The notes beneath the pieces were generated by a model. That model worked only from the letters and a program-made list of their open reading frames with translations. It searched no databases and had not been told where the DNA came from. The position numbers and the translations under genes are program-made. Source: Carboxydothermus hydrogenoformans Z-2901 (GTDB lineage Bacteria; Bacillota; Z-2901; Carboxydothermales; Carboxydothermaceae). From it: a DNA stretch of 64,000 nt. This document shows positions 33,796 through 48,773 of this stretch, in pieces; the first letter of the stretch is position 1; each line of letters begins with the position of its first letter. The stretch is taken from positions 186,001-250,000 of the forward strand of contig NC_007503.1 in assembly GCF_000012865.1 (NCBI RefSeq), in the 5' to 3' direction.

Positions 33796-33818
33796 TAATA
33801 TAGTTTGGGGTGTTTTGT

Positions 33819-35807
33819 ATGGAACGTTTTTTGTTAAAAGCAAATTATACGCCCAAGGGAGATCAACCCAAAGCCATAAAGGAACTTACCGAAGGGATTG
33901 AGAAGGGGCTAAAAATGCAGACCCTTCTGGGGGTAACCGGTTCTGGGAAAACTTTTACCATGGCCAATGTGATTGCCAATGTAAACAAGCCCACTTTAGT
34001 AATTGCACCCAATAAAACGCTGGCGGCCCAGCTTTGTGCGGAGTTCAGGGAGTTTTTTCCCGAAAACGCGGTGGAGTATTTTGTAAGCTACTACGATTAC
34101 TATCAACCGGAAGCTTACTTACCGGCCACCGATACGTATATAGAAAAAGACTCGGCTATAAACGATGAAATTGATAAACTCCGCCATTCAGCAACGGCGG
34201 CGCTTTTTGAACGGCGGGATGTTATTATCGTGGCATCGGTCTCCTGCATTTACGGTTTAGGGGATCCCCAGGAATATCGGGAACTTCTACTTTCCGTTAG
34301 AAAAGGGCAGATTTACGAGCGGGAAGCAATTTTAAGAAAGCTTGTAGATATTCAGTATGAGCGGAATGAGTACGACTTAACCCGGGGGAAATTTCGGGTA
34401 AGAGGGGATGTAATTGAAGTTTTTCCGGCGTCGTATACCGACCGGGCGGTGCGCATCGAGCTTTTTGGCGATGAGGTGGATAGGATTTTAGAATTTGATA
34501 CTTTAACGGGAGAGATTATCGGGGAGCTAAAACACGTGGCCATTTTTCCGGCAAGCCACTTTGCTACTTCCAAAGAAAAGTTAGAACGGGCGATAAAAAG
34601 CATTGAAGAAGAGCTTGAAGAACGGCTTCGCTATTTTGAAGAGCGGGGCAAACTCCTTGAAGCCCAGCGTTTAAAGCAGAGGACCTTGTACGATATTGAA
34701 ATGCTGCGGGAAGTAGGTTACACTAAAGGAATTGAAAACTATTCCCGGCATTTAACCGGAAGAAAACCCGGCGAGCCTCCCTATACGTTAATTGATTATT
34801 TTCCCAAAGATTTTCTTATGATTATTGATGAAAGCCATATAACGATTCCCCAGATTCGGGGGATGTATGAAGGGGACCGCTCCCGGAAGGAGGCGCTGGT
34901 GGAGTACGGTTTTCGCCTGCCTTCGGCCTTTGACAACCGGCCACTGAAATTTCATGAGTTTGAAGCAAGAATTAACCAGGTAGTGTTTGTTTCGGCTACT
35001 CCCGGACCCTATGAGTTAAAGCATTCTCAAAAGATTGTGGAGCAGATTATCCGGCCGACGGGGCTGGTTGACCCCGAGGTAGAAGTTCGACCCACCCGGG
35101 GGCAGGTGGATGACCTCTACGGGGAAATTAAAGAGCGGGTAGCCCGAAACGAGCGGGTGCTGGTAACCACCCTCACCAAGAAGATGGCCGAGGACCTGAC
35201 CGAGTATTTCCGGGAGATGGGAGTGAAGGTCCGGTACCTTCATTCGGATATTGATACCCTGGAACGGGTTGAAATCCTGCGAGACTTAAGGCTGGGAGTT
35301 TTTGATGTTTTGGTGGGAATAAACCTCCTCAGGGAAGGTCTGGATTTACCCGAAGTTAGCCTGGTGGCCATTTTGGATGCCGACAAGGAAGGGTATTTAC
35401 GTTCGGAACGCTCTTTAATCCAAACCATCGGACGGGCGGCGCGGAACGTAAACGGCAAAGTAATCATGTATGCCGATACCGTTACCGCTTCCATGCAAAA
35501 AGCCATTGATGAAACCAACCGGCGCCGTAAACTTCAGATGGAATACAACCGGAAGCACGGAATAACGCCGCAAACGGTGCAAAAGGCGGTAAGGGATGTT
35601 ATTGAGGCGACCAGGGCGGTGACTGCAGAACTACCGGAAGTAAAGCGGGATTTCATCCAGAAAATGAGTGCGAAAGAGTTTAAGCAGTATGTGGAAAAAC
35701 TTACCCGGGAAATGAAAGAAGCAGCTAAAGCTTTGGAGTTTGAAAAAGCGGCGATGCTGCGCGACTTAATAATTGAGCTTCGGGCGCAAAAGGCGGTCAA
35801 AAAGTAA
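33819..35807 (+). CDS. uvrB: Excinuclease ABC subunit B
   Basis: ATG 33819 lies six bases after GGGGTG; a GTG nine bases earlier is less likely. The product has 662 residues. Helicase motifs: [13 protein letters not shown] (Walker A), the beta-hairpin [12 protein letters not shown] that clamps DNA, IIDESH (DEAD equivalent), and [13 protein letters not shown]. The C-terminal UVR domain ([17 protein letters not shown]) binds UvrC. It is part of nucleotide excision repair and lies 21 bases ahead of uvrA, one operon. Confidence 0.97.
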
Positions 35808-35828
35808 TAATGGAGGTTTTACACACTG

Positions 35829-38651
35829 ATGGATAAGATTGTCATTAAAGGGGCCAGGGTTCATAATCTAAAAAATATAGATTTAACCCTGCCGCGCAAT
35901 AAATTTATCGTTATTACCGGGGTTTCCGGTTCCGGCAAATCGTCGTTGGCCTTTGACACCATTTATGCCGAAGGACAGCGGCGGTATGTGGAAAGTTTAT
36001 CGGCTTATGCCCGCCAGTTTTTGGGGCAAATGGATAAGCCCGATGTGGATTTTATCGAAGGGTTGTCACCGGCAATTTCCATTGACCAGAAGACCACGTC
36101 CAAAAACCCCCGGTCAACGGTGGGTACGGTTACGGAGATTCACGATTATTTAAGGCTTTTATATGCCCGCATAGGAATACCCCACTGCCCGGTTTGCGGG
36201 CGGGTGGTAGAAAAACAAACCATTGACCAGATGGTCGATAGATTATTAGCTTTACCCGAACGGACCAAATTGGTAATTATGGCGCCTATTGTGCGGGGAA
36301 GGAAGGGAGAGTTTGTCAAAACTTTGGAAGATATCCGGCGTCAGGGTTTTGCCCGGGTCCGGGTGGATGGTATTCTTTATGACTTAGCGGAAGATATTAA
36401 GTTAGAAAAAAATAAAAAACACAATATAGATGTTGTTGTTGACCGGCTGGTAGTAAAAGACGGAATAAAAACCAGGCTTTACGATTCCTTAGAAACGGCG
36501 CTTAAGCTTACCGAAGGCCTGGCCGTGGTGGAAGTAGTAGACGGGGAGGAGATTACTTTTTCCGAAAACTTTGCCTGTCCCCACTGTGAAATAAGCCTTC
36601 CGGAGATAAGCCCCCGGCTTTTTTCCTTTAATAATCCCTTTGGGGCTTGTCCCGAATGTACCGGCCTTGGTTATAAATTGGAAGTGGATCCGGATCTGGT
36701 AATACCCGATAAAGATTTGACGTTACGGCAGGGGGCAATAGCCGCCTGGAACGCGGGTAATATGCAGGCATATTATTTTCAGGTGTTAGAGGCTTTAGCG
36801 AAAAAATACCGGTTTAGTTTGGACGTGCCGGTAAAAGAGCTTGAGCCGGAAATTTTAAGAATAATCCTCTATGGCCTTCCTGGGGAGAAAGTGCGGGTCA
36901 GGTATTACAACTATACCAATGGCAATTCTTACACCTTTGATGCCAACTGGGAGGGGGTTATCCCCAATTTAGAGCGGCGGTACCGGGAAACCCAGTCGGA
37001 GGCGGTGCGGGAAGAAATTGAAAAATTTATGACCCAGAGAAAATGTCCCTCCTGCCAGGGAGCCCGGCTGAAAAAAGAAGCCCTGGCGGTAACGGTGGGC
37101 GGAAAAAACATTCATGAACTTGGCGAAATGACCGTGGAAAAGCTTCTGGCTTTCCTGGAAAATCTTGAGTTAACGGAACGAGAGTTTTTAATTGCCCGGC
37201 AGGTTTTGAAGGAAATTAAGGAACGCCTGGGGTTTTTAAACAACGTGGGTTTGGATTACCTGACCTTAAATCGCTCCGCTACTACCTTGTCCGGCGGGGA
37301 AGCTCAGCGGATCCGCCTTGCTACGCAAATCGGTTCCGGCCTTACCGGGGTGCTGTATGTTTTGGATGAACCATCAATAGGCTTGCATCCCCGGGATACC
37401 AAGCGGCTTTTGGATACTTTAAAGCGACTGCGGGATCTGGGCAATACTTTAATAGTGGTGGAACACGATGAAGAGACCATTAGGGAAGCGGATTTTATTG
37501 TGGACATGGGACCGGGAGCTGGCGAAAAAGGAGGGCAGGTAGTAGCTGCAGGTACCCTGGAAGAAGTGCTAAAGCATCCCGATTCAATTACTGCAAAATA
37601 TCTCAGGGGGGAAGAAAAAATCCCCGTGCCGCTTTTTCGCCGGAGCGGTAATGGTAAAACTATTACCATTGTGGGGGCCCGGGAAAACAATTTAAAAAAT
37701 ATTACCGTCGAAATTCCCCTGGGGAAATTTGTAGCGGTAACCGGGGTGTCCGGTTCCGGTAAAAGTACGTTAATTAATGAAATTTTGTATAAGGCTGTGG
37801 CCGGAAAGTTTTATAAGCTAAAAGAAAAACCCGGAGCTCATGATGAGATTTTAGGTCTTACTTACATTGATAAGATAATCAATATCGACCAGTCGCCCAT
37901 CGGCCGAACACCGCGCTCAAATCCGGCAACCTATACCGGAGTGTTTAACGATATCCGCGAGCTTTTTGCGGCAACTCCCGAAGCCCGGATGCGGGGTTAT
38001 AAACCGGGACGGTTTTCTTTTAACGTGAAGGGCGGACGGTGTGAAGCATGTGAAGGGGACGGGATAATCAAGATTGAAATGCATTTTCTCCCCGATGTTT
38101 ACGTCCCCTGCGAGGTGTGTAAGGGGGCCCGGTATAACCGGGAAACGTTGGAGGTGCGGTATAAAGGAAAAAATATTGCCGAGGTACTGGATATGACGGT
38201 AGAGGAGGCTCTGGAGTTTTTCTCCGCGATACCCAGAATCCAGCGCAAACTGCAAACCCTTTATGATGTGGGCTTAGGCTATATCCGCCTGGGGCAGCCG
38301 GCTACTACCCTATCCGGCGGCGAAGCTCAGAGGGTAAAGCTGGCCACCGAACTTTCCCGGCGTTCCACCGGGAAAACTTTATACATTTTAGATGAGCCCA
38401 CTACGGGCCTGCACATTGCCGATGTGCATAGGCTTCTTGATGTTTTAAACCGCCTGGTGGAAGCGGGAAATACGGTGGTGGTAATCGAACACAATTTAGA
38501 TGTAATTAAGACTGCCGACTGGATAATCGATTTGGGACCCGAAGGAGGCGATAAAGGCGGGCAGGTAGTGGCCGAGGGAACTCCAGAGGAAGTGGCCCGG
38601 AATCCAGCCTCTTATACCGGAAAGTTTTTAAGGCCGTATCTTAATTTATAA
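35829..38651 (+). CDS. uvrA: Excinuclease ABC subunit A
   Basis: The protein has 940 residues, full length. It has two ABC ATPase modules with Walker [15 protein letters not shown] and [13 protein letters not shown], two signatures ([12 protein letters not shown] and [12 protein letters not shown]), and three cysteine pairs forming zinc modules (CPVC near 117, CPHC/CPEC near 250-280 and CEAC/CEVC near 740-765). It finds bulky lesions in DNA and loads UvrB. GGAGG lies before the ATG with a long spacing of about 12 bases. It is co-transcribed with uvrB and ended by a strong hairpin. Confidence 0.97.
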
Positions 38652-44086: not shown

Positions 44087-46237
44087 ATGGAAGCTTTAAA
44101 AATAGCGCCGACAGAGAAGTTTAAGGAAAGAGTTGCAAAGCTTTTAAATCCCCGGAGCATCGCTGTAATTGGTGCTTCGGAAAAACCGGAGAAGCTTGGC
44201 AACGCTATTTTAAGAAATATTGTTTCCGGGTATAAAGGAGAAGTTTTTGGAGTTAATCCCAGGGTAAAGAAAATTCAGGAAATCGAAGTTTACCCGGATG
44301 TTTTTTCCTTACCGTATCCGGTAGATTTAGCGGTTATAGTTTTGCCGGCGGAAAAAGCGGTAGTTGCTTTAAAAGAGGCGGCTGAAGCTGGAGTTAAGTC
44401 GGCGGTGGTGATTTCAGGAGGATTTAAAGAAACGGGTAATGAAGGGGCTTTACTGGAAGAAGAGATAAAAAAAATAGCCCTTGACTTTGAGATGCCGGTT
44501 TTAGGTCCGAACTGTGTGGGGATTGTGAATAATAATTTGCAATTAAATGCTACTTTTTTACGCACAGCCCCCCTTAAGGGGGAAATTGCCTTTGTTTCGC
44601 AATCGGGAGCAATATTGTCTACCGTTTTGGAATGGAGCTTAAAAGAGGATTTGGGCTTTTCCTACATGATTAGTATGGGAAACAAAGCGGTCTTAAATGA
44701 AGCGGATTTTCTTCCGGCAATTGCCAATGATCCCGGTACCGCTGTTATTTTGCTTTATATTGAGGATGTGGTGGAGGGCAGTAGTTTTTTAAAAAAAGCT
44801 TACGAAGCGAGTTTATTAAAACCGGTGGTGGTATTTAAAGCGGGAATCAGCACAGCCGGTGCTAAAGCTGCCAGTTCACATACCGGAGCTTTGGCGGGAA
44901 GCATAGAAGGCTATAAATTGGCTTTTGCCAAAACCGGTTTAATCCGGGCTAAAACTTTAGAAGAAATGTTTATTTATGCCAGGGTTTTTGCTTCCGGACA
45001 GAAAGTTACCGGTAAAAACATCGGGATTGTTACCAATTCAGGAGGTCCAGGAGTTATTACTGCTGACCGACTGGAATTAAATGGTTTAAATATTACCGGG
45101 TTATCGGCCAAAACCATTAATGAACTAAAGACCTTTTTACCCCGGGCTGCGAGCTTTGGCAATCCCGTTGATATCCTGGGAGATGCCGATGAGGAAAAGT
45201 ATGCGATGACGCTTAAGACAGTACTGGACGATGAGAAAGTGGACGGCGTGGTAGCGGTTTATGGTAAAACGGCAGTTATAGATATGGAAAAAATGGTGCA
45301 GGCGGTAATTAATGGTCGAAGGAAAAATCCAGATAAACCGGTGGTTGCTTGTTTTTTAGGCGGGGTTGATAGCAGAAGAGCAAAAGAGCTTTTAAATAAA
45401 AATAAGATTCCTTTTTATTCTTTTCCTGAAGCAGCGGCAGATGCTCTGGCAGTCCTTTATCGTTATTACAGCTGGCGGGAAAAGCAAAAGGAAGGAAAAA
45501 CAGAGTTTAGTTTTGATGATATCGACCGGAAATTAGCCCGGGAAATTATCAAAAACGCCCTGGTTGAAGGAAGAAGAAATCTTACAGGTTATGAAACGGC
45601 AGAAGTTTTAAAAGCTTTTGGTTTTCCGGTGCTGCCGGTAAAACTTGTACGAAATGTCCAGGAACTGCGCAAAGCAATTGAAGAAATAAGTTTTCCATTA
45701 GCGTTAAAAATTGTTTCTCCTGATCTTCTGCACAAATCGGATGTAGGTGGCGTTGCCTTAAACATTAAAAACGAACAGGAGGCAATCAGGGCTTATCAAA
45801 AAATGATCCTGGAAGTTCCCAAAAAAGTACCGGAGGCGAAAATTCTTGGGGTTGAGGTACAAAAACAAATAGCACCTGGTTTAGAGATATTCATAGGAGC
45901 AAATCGGGACCCGGTTTTTGGTCCAATCTTAGCCTTTGGCCTGGGAGGAATATACGTAAATCTTTTAAACGATATAGCATTAAGATTAAATTATAAATTT
46001 ACCAGGGAAGAAGCTTTAGAAATGATCAAAGAAACAAAGGTATACGAAATTATAAAAGGCTATCGCGGGCAAAAAGCTTATGATCTGAAAATTATTCAGG
46101 AAATTTTGGGAAGGCTTTCGCTTTTCTTGGAGGAAATTCCGGAAATTAAAGAGATTGATTTTAATCCGGTATTCGTTTACGAAAAAGGTGCATTAATCAT
46201 CGATGCCAAGGTAGTACTTGCCGGGCATAATATTTAG
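44087..46237 (+). CDS. acdA: ADP-forming acetyl-CoA synthetase, alpha-beta fusion
   Basis: The protein has 716 residues. AGGAGGG precedes the ATG. Residues 20-150 are a CoA-binding Rossmann domain (IAVIGASEKPEKLGNAIL); residues 155-450 are two succinyl-CoA-ligase-like domains with the phosphohistidine in SSHTGALAGS (about residue 265). Residues 480-710 are an ATP-grasp beta domain (FPLALKIVSPDLLHKSDVGGV). It makes ATP from acetyl-CoA, ADP and phosphate, or acts on other acyl-CoAs. This is the fused architecture, unlike the split archaeal subunits. It is complementary to the AMP-forming acs and may carry energy conservation during acetate production. It is terminated 13 bases later. Confidence 0.9.
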   Translation: MEALKIAPTEKFKERVAKLLNPRSIAVIGASEKPEKLGNAILRNIVSGYKGEVFGVNPRVKKIQEIEVYPDVFSLPYPVDLAVIVLPAEKAVVALKEAAEAGVKSAVVISGGFKETGNEGALLEEEIKKIALDFEMPVLGPNCVGIVNNNLQLNATFLRTAPLKGEIAFVSQSGAILSTVLEWSLKEDLGFSYMISMGNKAVLNEADFLPAIANDPGTAVILLYIEDVVEGSSFLKKAYEASLLKPVVVFKAGISTAGAKAASSHTGALAGSIEGYKLAFAKTGLIRAKTLEEMFIYARVFASGQKVTGKNIGIVTNSGGPGVITADRLELNGLNITGLSAKTINELKTFLPRAASFGNPVDILGDADEEKYAMTLKTVLDDEKVDGVVAVYGKTAVIDMEKMVQAVINGRRKNPDKPVVACFLGGVDSRRAKELLNKNKIPFYSFPEAAADALAVLYRYYSWREKQKEGKTEFSFDDIDRKLAREIIKNALVEGRRNLTGYETAEVLKAFGFPVLPVKLVRNVQELRKAIEEISFPLALKIVSPDLLHKSDVGGVALNIKNEQEAIRAYQKMILEVPKKVPEAKILGVEVQKQIAPGLEIFIGANRDPVFGPILAFGLGGIYVNLLNDIALRLNYKFTREEALEMIKETKVYEIIKGYRGQKAYDLKIIQEILGRLSLFLEEIPEIKEIDFNPVFVYEKGALIIDAKVVLAGHNI

Positions 46238-46249
46238 GGGTATTTAAAG

Positions 46250-46286
46250 TAGGTTTTGGGGATTGTTCTCCAAAGCCTATTTTTTT
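46250..46286 (+). terminator. Terminator after the ADP-forming synthetase
   Basis: TAGGTTTTGGGGA pairs with TCTCCAAAGCCTA (with G-U wobbles) and is followed by seven T. Confidence 0.8.
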
Positions 46287-46290
46287 GTGC

Positions 46291-46310
46291 TATAATATAT
46301 ACAGTATATA
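46291..46310 (+). promoter_or_regulatory. -10 box and palindromic operator of the AbrB/Doc-like pair
   Basis: TATAAT at 46291-46296 runs into a perfect TATATAC-A-GTATATA palindrome (46296-46310), flanked by TGTG and ACACA. No good -35 is visible. The position is right for autorepression by the AbrB-like product. Confidence 0.5.
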
Positions 46311-46327
46311 CACAGGAGGTTTTAGGG

Positions 46328-46567
46328 GTGAACGTGCGCAAAACCTTTAAGGTGGGCAACAGTTTGGTAGTTTCCATTCCCCAGGAGTACGTTAAAAGCC
46401 TGGGGATTAAAGAAGGAGATCCGCTGATTATTGAACCATGGGAACATGGTTTTATCGTTAAAACCTTTGGGGCTGTTGGAAAGGAAAGCAAGATACCTTC
46501 CGGAAAGAGTCCGGTAGAGAAATTACTGGAAAAATACGGGTTTGTGGTGGAGGAGTTTTCTTCATGA
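46328..46567 (+). CDS. AbrB/SpoVT-like DNA-binding protein, antitoxin type
   Basis: GTG 46328 is eight bases after AGGAGG, giving 79 residues; a GTG at 46334 is an alternative. Residues 1-45 have the swapped-hairpin AbrB signature (VRKTFKVGNSLVVSIPQEYVKSLGIKEGD split over two strands). The remaining residues are a flexible linker and a helix (VEKLLEKYGFVVEEF), a layout seen in antitoxins that wrap a toxin. It overlaps the Doc-like gene by four bases (ATGA). It probably represses its own palindromic promoter. Confidence 0.82.
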   Translation: MNVRKTFKVGNSLVVSIPQEYVKSLGIKEGDPLIIEPWEHGFIVKTFGAVGKESKIPSGKSPVEKLLEKYGFVVEEFSS

Positions 46568-46947
46568 TGAATTTAAAAGAATGCTTGAATGCTTATTACC
46601 GCTATTACGGGGAAGAAAAGTTGATGGCGGTAAATGTGGATGCTTTAGATAAAGCTTTAGCCGAGCCTTACGCCAAAACGTTTATTGGAGGAAGGGAAAT
46701 TTATCCGGAAATGACCGATAAAGCTGCTGCTCTTTTTGAGGCAATTATCAGGCTTAAACCTTTTCCTGTGGGCAATCTTGCTTTTGCTTTTATCTTAACG
46801 GTACTGTTTATCCATAAAAACGGCTGGCGGCTTAATGCGTCGGACGATGAAGTCAGGCAATTTTTAAAGAATTTTTCGGAAGGAGTCCGAGGTTCTGTAG
46901 ATGTGAAAGGCTGGTTTTTAAAGCGAATGGAGCAAGTGAGGGATTAA
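46564..46947 (+). CDS. Doc/Fic-fold protein with degenerate catalytic motif
   Basis: The protein has 127 residues. The order of conserved segments matches Doc toxins: LDKALAEP, then FIGGREIYPEMTDKAAALFEAI, then a helix-motif-helix ending FILTVLFIHKNGWRLNASDDEV. Where Doc has H-x-F-x-D/N-G/A-N-K-R, this protein has KPFPVGNLAF, so the catalytic His, acidic residue and KR are gone; only F, G and N remain. It should not phosphorylate or adenylylate targets by the known mechanism. It may be an inactivated toxin, a domesticated partner of the AbrB-like protein, or a binder of a new ligand. Three bases separate it from uvrC. Confidence 0.75.
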   Translation: MMNLKECLNAYYRYYGEEKLMAVNVDALDKALAEPYAKTFIGGREIYPEMTDKAAALFEAIIRLKPFPVGNLAFAFILTVLFIHKNGWRLNASDDEVRQFLKNFSEGVRGSVDVKGWFLKRMEQVRD

Positions 46948-46949
46948 AG

Positions 46950-48773
46950 TTGACATTATGGGAAAAAGTCAAGAATTTACCCGACAGTCCCGGAGTTTAT
47001 CTTTATAAAGACGAAAAGGGCGAGGTTATTTACGTTGGCAAGGCTAAAAACCTGAAAAATCGGGTGCGTTCGTACTTTCAACCTCCGGAAAAACTTTTGC
47101 CTAAAACCAGGGTAATGATGGAAAAAGCAAGGGACATCGAAGTGATTATTACTTCTACGGAAGTAGAAGCTTTAATTTTAGAACAAAACCTCATAAAAAG
47201 ATACCGGCCCCGGTATAATATTTTGCTGAAAGACGATAAGTCTTATCCTTACCTGAAAATTACCGGTGAAGAGTTTCCCCGGCTTTTAATTACCCGCAGG
47301 GTAGTTAATGATGGTGGACGCTACTTTGGTCCGTACCCCGATGCGGGTGCGTTAAACGAAACGTACAAGCTTTTACGGTCAATATTTAAATTTCGCACCT
47401 GTACCCCAACGATTTTTGCCCAGAAGAAGCGTCCCTGCTTAAACTTTCATATAAAAAAATGTTCCGCCCCCTGTGCCGGGGAAATTAGCCGGGAAGAATA
47501 TTTTAAAGAAATCGAAATGGTGGTAGATTTTTTGGAAGGCAGGGGCGAAAATTTAATTAAAAAATTAAAAAAAGAAATGGCCATAGCTTCTGATAATCTC
47601 GAATTTGAACGAGCGGCAAAATTAAGGGACCAGATCTTAGCTTTGGAAAAAATTTTGGCGAAACAAAAGATTTCCCGTGGCCAGAGAAATGCCGATGTAG
47701 TGGTTGTTGCTAACAGGGAAAACCTGGGGGTAGGATTGATTTTTGTTATTCGCCAGGGGAATTTATTAGGGCAGAAAGTTTATACCTTTACCGGCGAGAT
47801 GGAAACCGGGGAGCTTTTAAATCAAGTTTTAGTAACCCACTATGGAGAGGCCAAAGAAGTTCCTGTTGAAATTATCCTGTCAACCAGGGAAAATTTAGAT
47901 GAAGAATTTCTCAATTCCTGGTTTGAACTTAAATTTGGGAAAAAGCCCAAATTTACGGTCCCGAAGCGGGGAGAAAAATTTGAACTTTTAAAAATGGCTT
48001 TAGAAAATGTAAACTTTACTCTGGATGAAAAAATTAAATTAAATGAAAAGAAACAATTGTTAAACGAAAAGGCTTTAATGGACTTAAAAGAAGCCTTAAA
48101 CCTTCCGGTGGTTCCAAGAAGAATTGAAGGATACGACATTTCCCACCTGGCTGGAACGGGAACGGTAGCATCAATGGTGGTATTTATTGACGGTGAGCCG
48201 GTAAAGGGAAAATACCGGCGTTTTGCCATCCGCAGTGCGGCCAATGATGACTATACCGCGATGTTTGAAGCGGTTTTGCGGCGCTTTAAAAAGTACCTTG
48301 CTTTACAGGAAGAGGGAGGAGCCGATGGCTCTTTTGAAGAGCTGCCGGATTTAGTGTTGATCGATGGCGGAAAAGGACAGTTGAACGCGGCTATGGATGC
48401 TTTAAAAGAAACTAATCTTCTGGGGAAGTTTACGGTAATTGCCCTTGCCAAGGAGCAGGAGGAAATTTTTCTTCCCGGGAAAAAGGACTCTCTTTTATTG
48501 ACACAGGACCGGGAAGGTTTAAAATTGTTACAAAGGGTACGAGATGAGGCCCACCGTTTTGCCAGAGGTTACCAGGAAAAAAAGCGGGTTAAAACCCTTG
48601 CTTCTCTTTTAGAGCAAGTAGAAGGAATTGGTCCCAAAAGGCGAAAACAACTTCTTAATAAATTTGGCAGCATTAAAAACCTTAGAGAAGCAACGGTTGA
48701 AGAGATTACAGCGGTTCCCGGAATTACCCGGGAAATAGCAGAAAGATTAAAAGAGCTTTTGGAAATGGAGTGA
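46950..48773 (+). CDS. uvrC: Excinuclease ABC subunit C
   Basis: TTG start 46950 after GAGGGA; 607 residues. The GIY-YIG nuclease domain is at residues 8-90 (LPDSPGVYLYKDEKGEVIYVGKAKNLKNR, across the motif). A UVR domain follows (LEFERAAKLRDQILAL, about 205-220), then the RNase-H-like 5' nuclease (EGYDISHLAGTGTVASMVVF and LVLIDGGKGQLNAA) and two C-terminal helix-hairpin-helix units (VEGIGPKRRKQLLNKFGS). It cuts on both sides of the lesion. It sits three bases after the Doc-like gene, so the toxin-antitoxin-like pair is transcribed into it. Confidence 0.96.
   Translation: MTLWEKVKNLPDSPGVYLYKDEKGEVIYVGKAKNLKNRVRSYFQPPEKLLPKTRVMMEKARDIEVIITSTEVEALILEQNLIKRYRPRYNILLKDDKSYPYLKITGEEFPRLLITRRVVNDGGRYFGPYPDAGALNETYKLLRSIFKFRTCTPTIFAQKKRPCLNFHIKKCSAPCAGEISREEYFKEIEMVVDFLEGRGENLIKKLKKEMAIASDNLEFERAAKLRDQILALEKILAKQKISRGQRNADVVVVANRENLGVGLIFVIRQGNLLGQKVYTFTGEMETGELLNQVLVTHYGEAKEVPVEIILSTRENLDEEFLNSWFELKFGKKPKFTVPKRGEKFELLKMALENVNFTLDEKIKLNEKKQLLNEKALMDLKEALNLPVVPRRIEGYDISHLAGTGTVASMVVFIDGEPVKGKYRRFAIRSAANDDYTAMFEAVLRRFKKYLALQEEGGADGSFEELPDLVLIDGGKGQLNAAMDALKETNLLGKFTVIALAKEQEEIFLPGKKDSLLLTQDREGLKLLQRVRDEAHRFARGYQEKKRVKTLASLLEQVEGIGPKRRKQLLNKFGSIKNLREATVEEITAVPGITREIAERLKELLEME

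Follow-up and report, generated by a model that had tools for sequence, protein, structure and literature searches.

A Doc-like protein without the Fic catalytic motif, kept with an AbrB-like partner directly before uvrC in Carboxydothermus

Toxicity is the usual explanation for toxin-antitoxin modules, through addiction, stress arrest or phage defence. In Carboxydothermus hydrogenoformans Z-2901, whose genome is a single contig of 2,401,520 bases, an AbrB-like gene and a Doc-like gene lie directly before the DNA-repair gene uvrC, and the Doc-like protein lacks the motif on which the chemistry of Doc toxins is built. What, then, keeps such a pair in place? The locus was analysed in a window of 64,000 nucleotides (contig NC_007503.1, positions 186,001 to 250,000), to which all coordinates of this species refer (Table 1). 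The catalytic residues are gone, yet selection holds the pair in place at the start of an operon for DNA repair; this suggests for the dead toxin a present role as a partner in gene regulation.

Table 1. Features of the AbrB/Doc-type locus and the gene behind it, in window coordinates.
Feature	Position	Strand	Evidence and remarks
Intrinsic terminator	46246..46283	+	17-bp stem, 4-nt loop, T run; ends the upstream gene and parts it from the pair
Extended -10 element TG-C-TATAAT	46288..46296	+	Sequence; TATAAT at 46291-46296
Palindrome TATATACAGTATATA, putative operator, 15 bp	46296..46310	.	Unique exact copy, conservation
AbrB/MazE-like antitoxin-type protein, 79 aa	46328..46567	+	TIGR02609 doc_partner, MazE_antitoxin, 9VZC profile match
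Motif-less Doc-like protein, 127 aa	46564..46947	+	TIGR01550, phrog_577, AlphaFold2 model, dN/dS
Former Fic motif KPFPVGNLAF, residues 65-74	46756..46785	+	Sequence, alignment
uvrC	46950..48773	+	TTG start; Pfam UvrC_RNaseH_dom, GIY-YIG, UVR, HHH

An AbrB/Doc-type pair with an altered Fic motif

The first gene product is a full-length match to TIGR02609 ("putative addiction module antidote, doc_partner") at 92.6 bits against a cut-off of 55.9, the match extending through the toxin-binding end, and it matches MazE_antitoxin at 40 bits; Carboxydothermus is the top-scoring genus for TIGR02609 in our survey of the phylum. Its start is best set at the GTG at 46328, behind an AGGAGG at 46314-46319, because a third Carboxydothermus species (G002) reads TTG AAC GTC there and has no inner GTG. 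The two genes share the four bases ATGA (46564-46567), made of the toxin ATG at 46564 and the antitoxin stop TGA at 46565-46567, so that the order is that of TasAB / TIGR02609-Doc modules, with the antitoxin first and its stop overlapping the toxin start. TasAB from Bacillus thuringiensis pGI1 (PMC1626090) likewise consists of an AbrB/MazE-like antitoxin with a GNS motif followed by a Doc-like protein, with a stop/start overlap and similar sizes. The profile match, the order and the overlap thus bear out the preliminary description of an AbrB/Doc-type pair.

Among solved structures, profile comparison puts both proteins nearest to those of Enterococcus faecalis Phd-Doc (PDB 9VZC/9VYB/9VX7, PMC13034048), which also combines an antitoxin of AbrB-like fold with a single palindromic operator near the promoter, an operator that is putative in our case. 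The antitoxin profile matches the partner antitoxin of the E. faecalis Doc in 9VZC at 1.5e-6, and two of the three DNA-contact residues of E. faecalis Phd are kept (Lys8 and Asn14), Arg10 being replaced by Phe.

The Doc-like protein matches TIGR01550 at 26.8 bits, under the cut-off of 38.65, and Pfam Fic is also sub-threshold; the Doc-like toxin family phrog_577 matches at 1.3e-9, and PADLOC returns weak, Fic-type PDC-S23 matches. Where the E. faecalis Doc, a kinase, has HXFX(D/N)(A/G)NKR, the protein reads KPFPVGNLAF and lacks the catalytic His, the acidic residue, the Lys and the Arg; measured against the TasB motif H(x)5NKR(x)8F(x)3N (PMC1626090), the H and the KR are missing. Alignment with a reference set of 41 Docs from viral contigs shows that residues near-invariant in that set are replaced, namely the helix-1 His, the Arg of GxRD, Asn64-His65, Asp69, Lys72 and Arg73, and that Pro66, Phe67, Gly70, Asn71, Asn86, the AA of the preceding helix and the scaffold are retained. 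The loss of the Fic motif reported earlier is therefore upheld, with the key polar residues replaced.

The Fic/Doc fold is predicted to be kept. AlphaFold2, aided by an input alignment with Docs, gives a model with a pLDDT of 87 and a pTM of 0.82, and the best PDB matches of this model in Foldseek are chains of P1 Doc (probability 0.99-1.00, TM 0.63-0.72). A model from the single sequence is weak (pLDDT 62.5), yet nearly all its top matches are Fic proteins, and a profile built from four motif-less sequences hits the 9VZC Doc (2e-9). The comparison with Doc structures proposed earlier thus agrees with a retained fold. Judged from its sequence, the pair belongs to the TasAB (mazE-doc) type in partner, gene order, overlap and fold and is not a Doc kinase by motif; because the active site is lost, the Doc-like protein is predicted to be non-toxic alone. 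A TIGR02609/Doc pair in an annotation need not encode a toxin.

Fic folds with non-canonical motifs are also known from BepC and other degenerate Bep Fic domains (PMC8401265) and from Fic2 of Campylobacter fetus (PMC5651007), but these are host-directed effectors or a still-toxic protein and not AbrB-partnered Doc modules. The Doc-like protein might still be an enzyme, a toxin or modifying enzyme carrying out another chemistry on the Fic scaffold. C. fetus Fic2 is toxic despite a degenerate motif (PMC5651007), AvrB has a very different sequence at the motif position (PMC4177925), and the loop of our protein retains Pro-Phe and Gly-Asn. Fic2, however, retained and required its His (PMC5651007), whereas in Carboxydothermus His has become Lys or Arg, Asp has become Val or Gln, Lys has become Leu and Arg has become Ala, the helix-1 His and the GxRD Arg being lost as well; moreover, the motif-less lineages described below have no common new polar signature at the lost positions. 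We consider an enzymatic role very unlikely.

The pair has its own putative control region. The gene on its 5' side encodes an ADP-forming acyl-CoA synthetase-type protein (44087-46237) and ends at the terminator; G002 has, by eye, a different terminator-like stem at the equivalent position. TATAATATATA is kept in all three Carboxydothermus species while the flanks diverge. No good -35 was found for the extended -10 element, which a simple sigma-70 scan omits. The palindrome TATATACAGTATATA, which overlaps the -10 box TATAAT, has a single exact occurrence in the 2.4 Mb genome and differs by one change in G002. A wider regulon gains no support: sites with one or two mismatches are few genome-wide (15 per strand versus 7 for a reversed-pattern control), these counts are near the control, and the best site is intragenic. 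This best site, a copy with a single mismatch (L193, 1501-1515), lies within a CCA tRNA nucleotidyltransferase-like ORF, probably by chance.

Conservation and selection in Carboxydothermus

The pair stands before uvrC, with the motif absent, in all three Carboxydothermus species examined, which are all of the class that was sampled and the whole basis for conservation in the genus. The motif position reads KPFPVGNLAF in C. hydrogenoformans and C. islandicus and RPFPQGNLAF in G002, so that the close homologues, whose possible possession of an intact motif had been named as grounds for dismissing the idea, lack it as well. The dN/dS of the toxin gene is about 0.11 (0.108) in two comparisons, with 95% bootstrap intervals of 0.04-0.19 and 0.03-0.24 and no replicate reaching 1, and is similar to that of uvrC (0.085-0.16); the ratio shows constraint and does not say which function is under selection. 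Motif loss in three species together with this ratio excludes a recent decay of the toxin, and the altered motif in three separate assemblies excludes a sequencing error. On the sequence evidence, the motif-less pair is maintained by selection and is not decaying, as had been suspected from the C. hydrogenoformans sequence.

Between the last base of the toxin stop (46947) and the uvrC TTG (46950) lie two bases, not the three given in the preliminary description, and the gap has this length in all three species. Disruption of the reading frames could therefore harm uvrC, which leaves room for the view that the pair is a relic without protein function whose frames persist through coupling of uvrC to its transcription and translation. 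Such coupling would, however, require only an open frame, whereas a dN/dS of 0.11, whose interval reaches no higher than 0.24, indicates selection at the amino-acid level. A true relic at the same locus looks different: the synthetase gene on the 5' side is shattered in G002, where only a remnant of it is left, but the pair, the -10 box and the palindrome survive there. Broken Docs elsewhere in the phylum (G170, G309, G302 and G201) show ordinary decay, with the toxin frame truncated or shifted. We regard the relic reading as largely refuted and grant it only a slight chance. The synthetase-like remnant of G002 lies at L060 8463-8756 and has an intact counterpart in C. hydrogenoformans.

The same comparison bears on the earlier suggestion of a decoy, in which the Doc-like protein, as a decoy or immunity factor, would tune or neutralise the active Docs of mobile elements by titrating the antitoxin or by pairing with those Docs. 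Neutralisation of one Fic protein by another is known in C. fetus (PMC5651007), and C. islandicus, alone of the three species, has a separate canonical Doc with the motif HAFIDGNKRT. That protein is just 30% identical to the Doc-like protein, however, no second Doc was found in the C. hydrogenoformans genome or in G002, and a decoy role would not account for the constant position before uvrC. The decoy role thus found no positive support, and we judge it the least probable of the readings discussed here. The canonical Doc of C. islandicus lies at L004 1489-1890, near an ORF of repeated peptides that resembles translation through a DNA repeat array.

Proposed role before uvrC

No AbrB/Doc pair was seen in the uvrC flanks (1.5 kb) of 29 other genomes of the phylum, and the position before uvrC looks specific to Carboxydothermus. 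Closely packed behind uvrC are genes named from sequence as encoding HAD, an FMN protein, a ROK kinase, PHP, RapZ, YvcK, a deacetylase and WhiA. The uvrB and uvrA genes (33810-38651) are also present in the window, the three genes lying within 15 kb.

From the motif loss, the constraint, the palindrome and the layout we infer binding of the palindrome, complex formation and an effect on uvrC. It is proposed that the catalytically dead Doc is retained as a co-regulator, acting with an AbrB repressor that controls its own gene and sets uvrC transcription as well, a proposal to which we give about an even chance of being right. Sequence and conservation show descent from a chromosomal mazE-doc (TasAB / TIGR02609-Doc) module in which the loss of the catalytic residues from the toxin is old. 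The AbrB-like protein would still recognise the palindrome that overlaps the -10 box of its promoter. By analogy with Phd-Doc of P1 and E. faecalis, the dead Doc would still dock on the C-terminal helix of the AbrB-like protein, making or breaking the DNA-binding complex and thereby setting the strength of promoter repression. If, as P1 and E. faecalis Phd-Doc suggest, the regulatory role of Doc lies in antitoxin binding, for which the active site may be dispensable, a dead Doc could keep setting promoter activity. The module would probably co-regulate uvrC, with the following genes perhaps included, as no separate start signal for uvrC was seen and only two bases separate the genes; a promoter-like site lies late inside uvrC, at 48498, and further uvrC starts could escape a simple scan. 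The arrangement makes regulation of uvrC by the pair plausible: a terminator precedes the pair, which has a conserved promoter and palindrome of its own, and uvrC starts two bases after it.

In P1 Phd-Doc, Doc co-regulates its own operon through co-repression and conditional cooperativity (PMC3920265); the Doc fold is common to both systems, but the P1 antitoxin has another fold, and P1 Doc is an active EF-Tu kinase that serves plasmid addiction. In E. faecalis Phd-Doc, the DNA-binding domain of the antitoxin alone binds one palindrome and the complex does not (PMC13034048). The inactive type II pair MtvT/MtvA of Pseudomonas aeruginosa plasmid pPAD8 shows that a non-toxic toxin-antitoxin pair can act as a transcription regulator (PMC11826091), although it is plasmid-borne and acts on other promoters in trans. 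No description of AbrB-partnered motif-less Docs was found in the literature searched, most subscription papers lying outside it.

The binding of the operator by the N-terminal domain of the E. faecalis antitoxin alone (PMC13034048) also fits a simpler arrangement, in which the AbrB-like protein regulates by itself and the Doc-like protein, inactive at the promoter, is kept just to help its partner fold or stay stable. The constraint across the whole of the Doc-like protein seems beyond what a mere stabiliser would need, and we think this arrangement rather improbable, though less so than the enzyme, relic or decoy. Loss of the catalytic residues from a pair that selection has retained makes two questions testable: whether the regulatory half of a toxin-antitoxin module alone can earn retention, and whether the pair is linked to the control of nucleotide-excision repair in Carboxydothermus.

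Motif loss elsewhere in the phylum

Loss of the Doc motif is unusual, since 56 of the 62 distinct Doc sequences in the first phylum survey and tree retain the canonical motif. Full-length motif-less Docs with an overlapping AbrB/TIGR02609-like partner also occur in four other genomes, where the motif position reads RPFNSLNTSA (G306), LPFKAANTAT (G472), NPFGTLSPAV (G280) and EPFEDGNLET (G515); the antitoxin gene overlaps the toxin gene by four bases in G306, G280 and G515 and by 20 bases in G472 when the first ATG is used. In G330 the position reads RPFAGANRRT and the partner is a different kind of small antitoxin. Pro-Phe is the sole part of the motif retained in every motif-less lineage. No motif-less relatives were found in the viral contigs scanned, and a scan of genome contigs found C. 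islandicus only.

With the motif columns left out of the tree, a single clade of seven motif-less sequences is rejected (p-AU 0.008), and the starred branches force three changes of motif state. An earlier one-clade test with five motif-less sequences did not reject (p 0.36), G280, G515 and close canonical rows having been added between the two tests. Three or more independent losses of the Doc motif are therefore likely rather than certain, given the five-sequence result and the long branches of the tree. The catalytic residues would thus have been lost repeatedly, while the pair, the overlap and, in Carboxydothermus, the putative operator were kept by selection.

A recognisable gene on the same strand lies no more than 30 bases downstream in four of the six motif-less lineages versus one of 59 distinct canonical loci (Fisher p = 1e-4, a post hoc comparison in which the canonical rows are non-independent and locus ends are limiting). 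The four downstream genes are uvrC in Carboxydothermus, the capsule gene PGA_cap in G306, a HhH-GPD DNA glycosylase gene in G330 and holA, which overlaps the pair, in G515; the sole clear canonical operon-head case is that of G124, before a UvrD helicase gene (L014/L247). Regulation of a neighbour is not general, since no gene lies close downstream of the motif-less pairs of G472 and G280. A broader reading is that AbrB-Doc modules several times independently became non-toxic operon-head switches, biased to replication and repair genes, in which a dead Doc would be the allosteric partner of a local repressor. The cases behind this bias are uvrC, holA and the DNA glycosylase gene, together with a canonical pair that precedes the UvrD helicase gene and a broken pair that precedes a DEAD-box helicase gene; we put the broader reading forward tentatively, as one that is more likely wrong than right.

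Doc-type pairs directly before replication or repair genes were seen in G124, G330 (L015), G515 (L250) and G170, in numbers that are small and noted post hoc. In G170 (L246) the toxin is truncated and a long DEAD-box helicase gene lies behind it. The motif-less pairs of G306 (L016) and G472 (L035) are both near a gene named from sequence as flgM-like, which suggests one old locus, and a gene likewise named as ComFB-like is also near the pair of G306.
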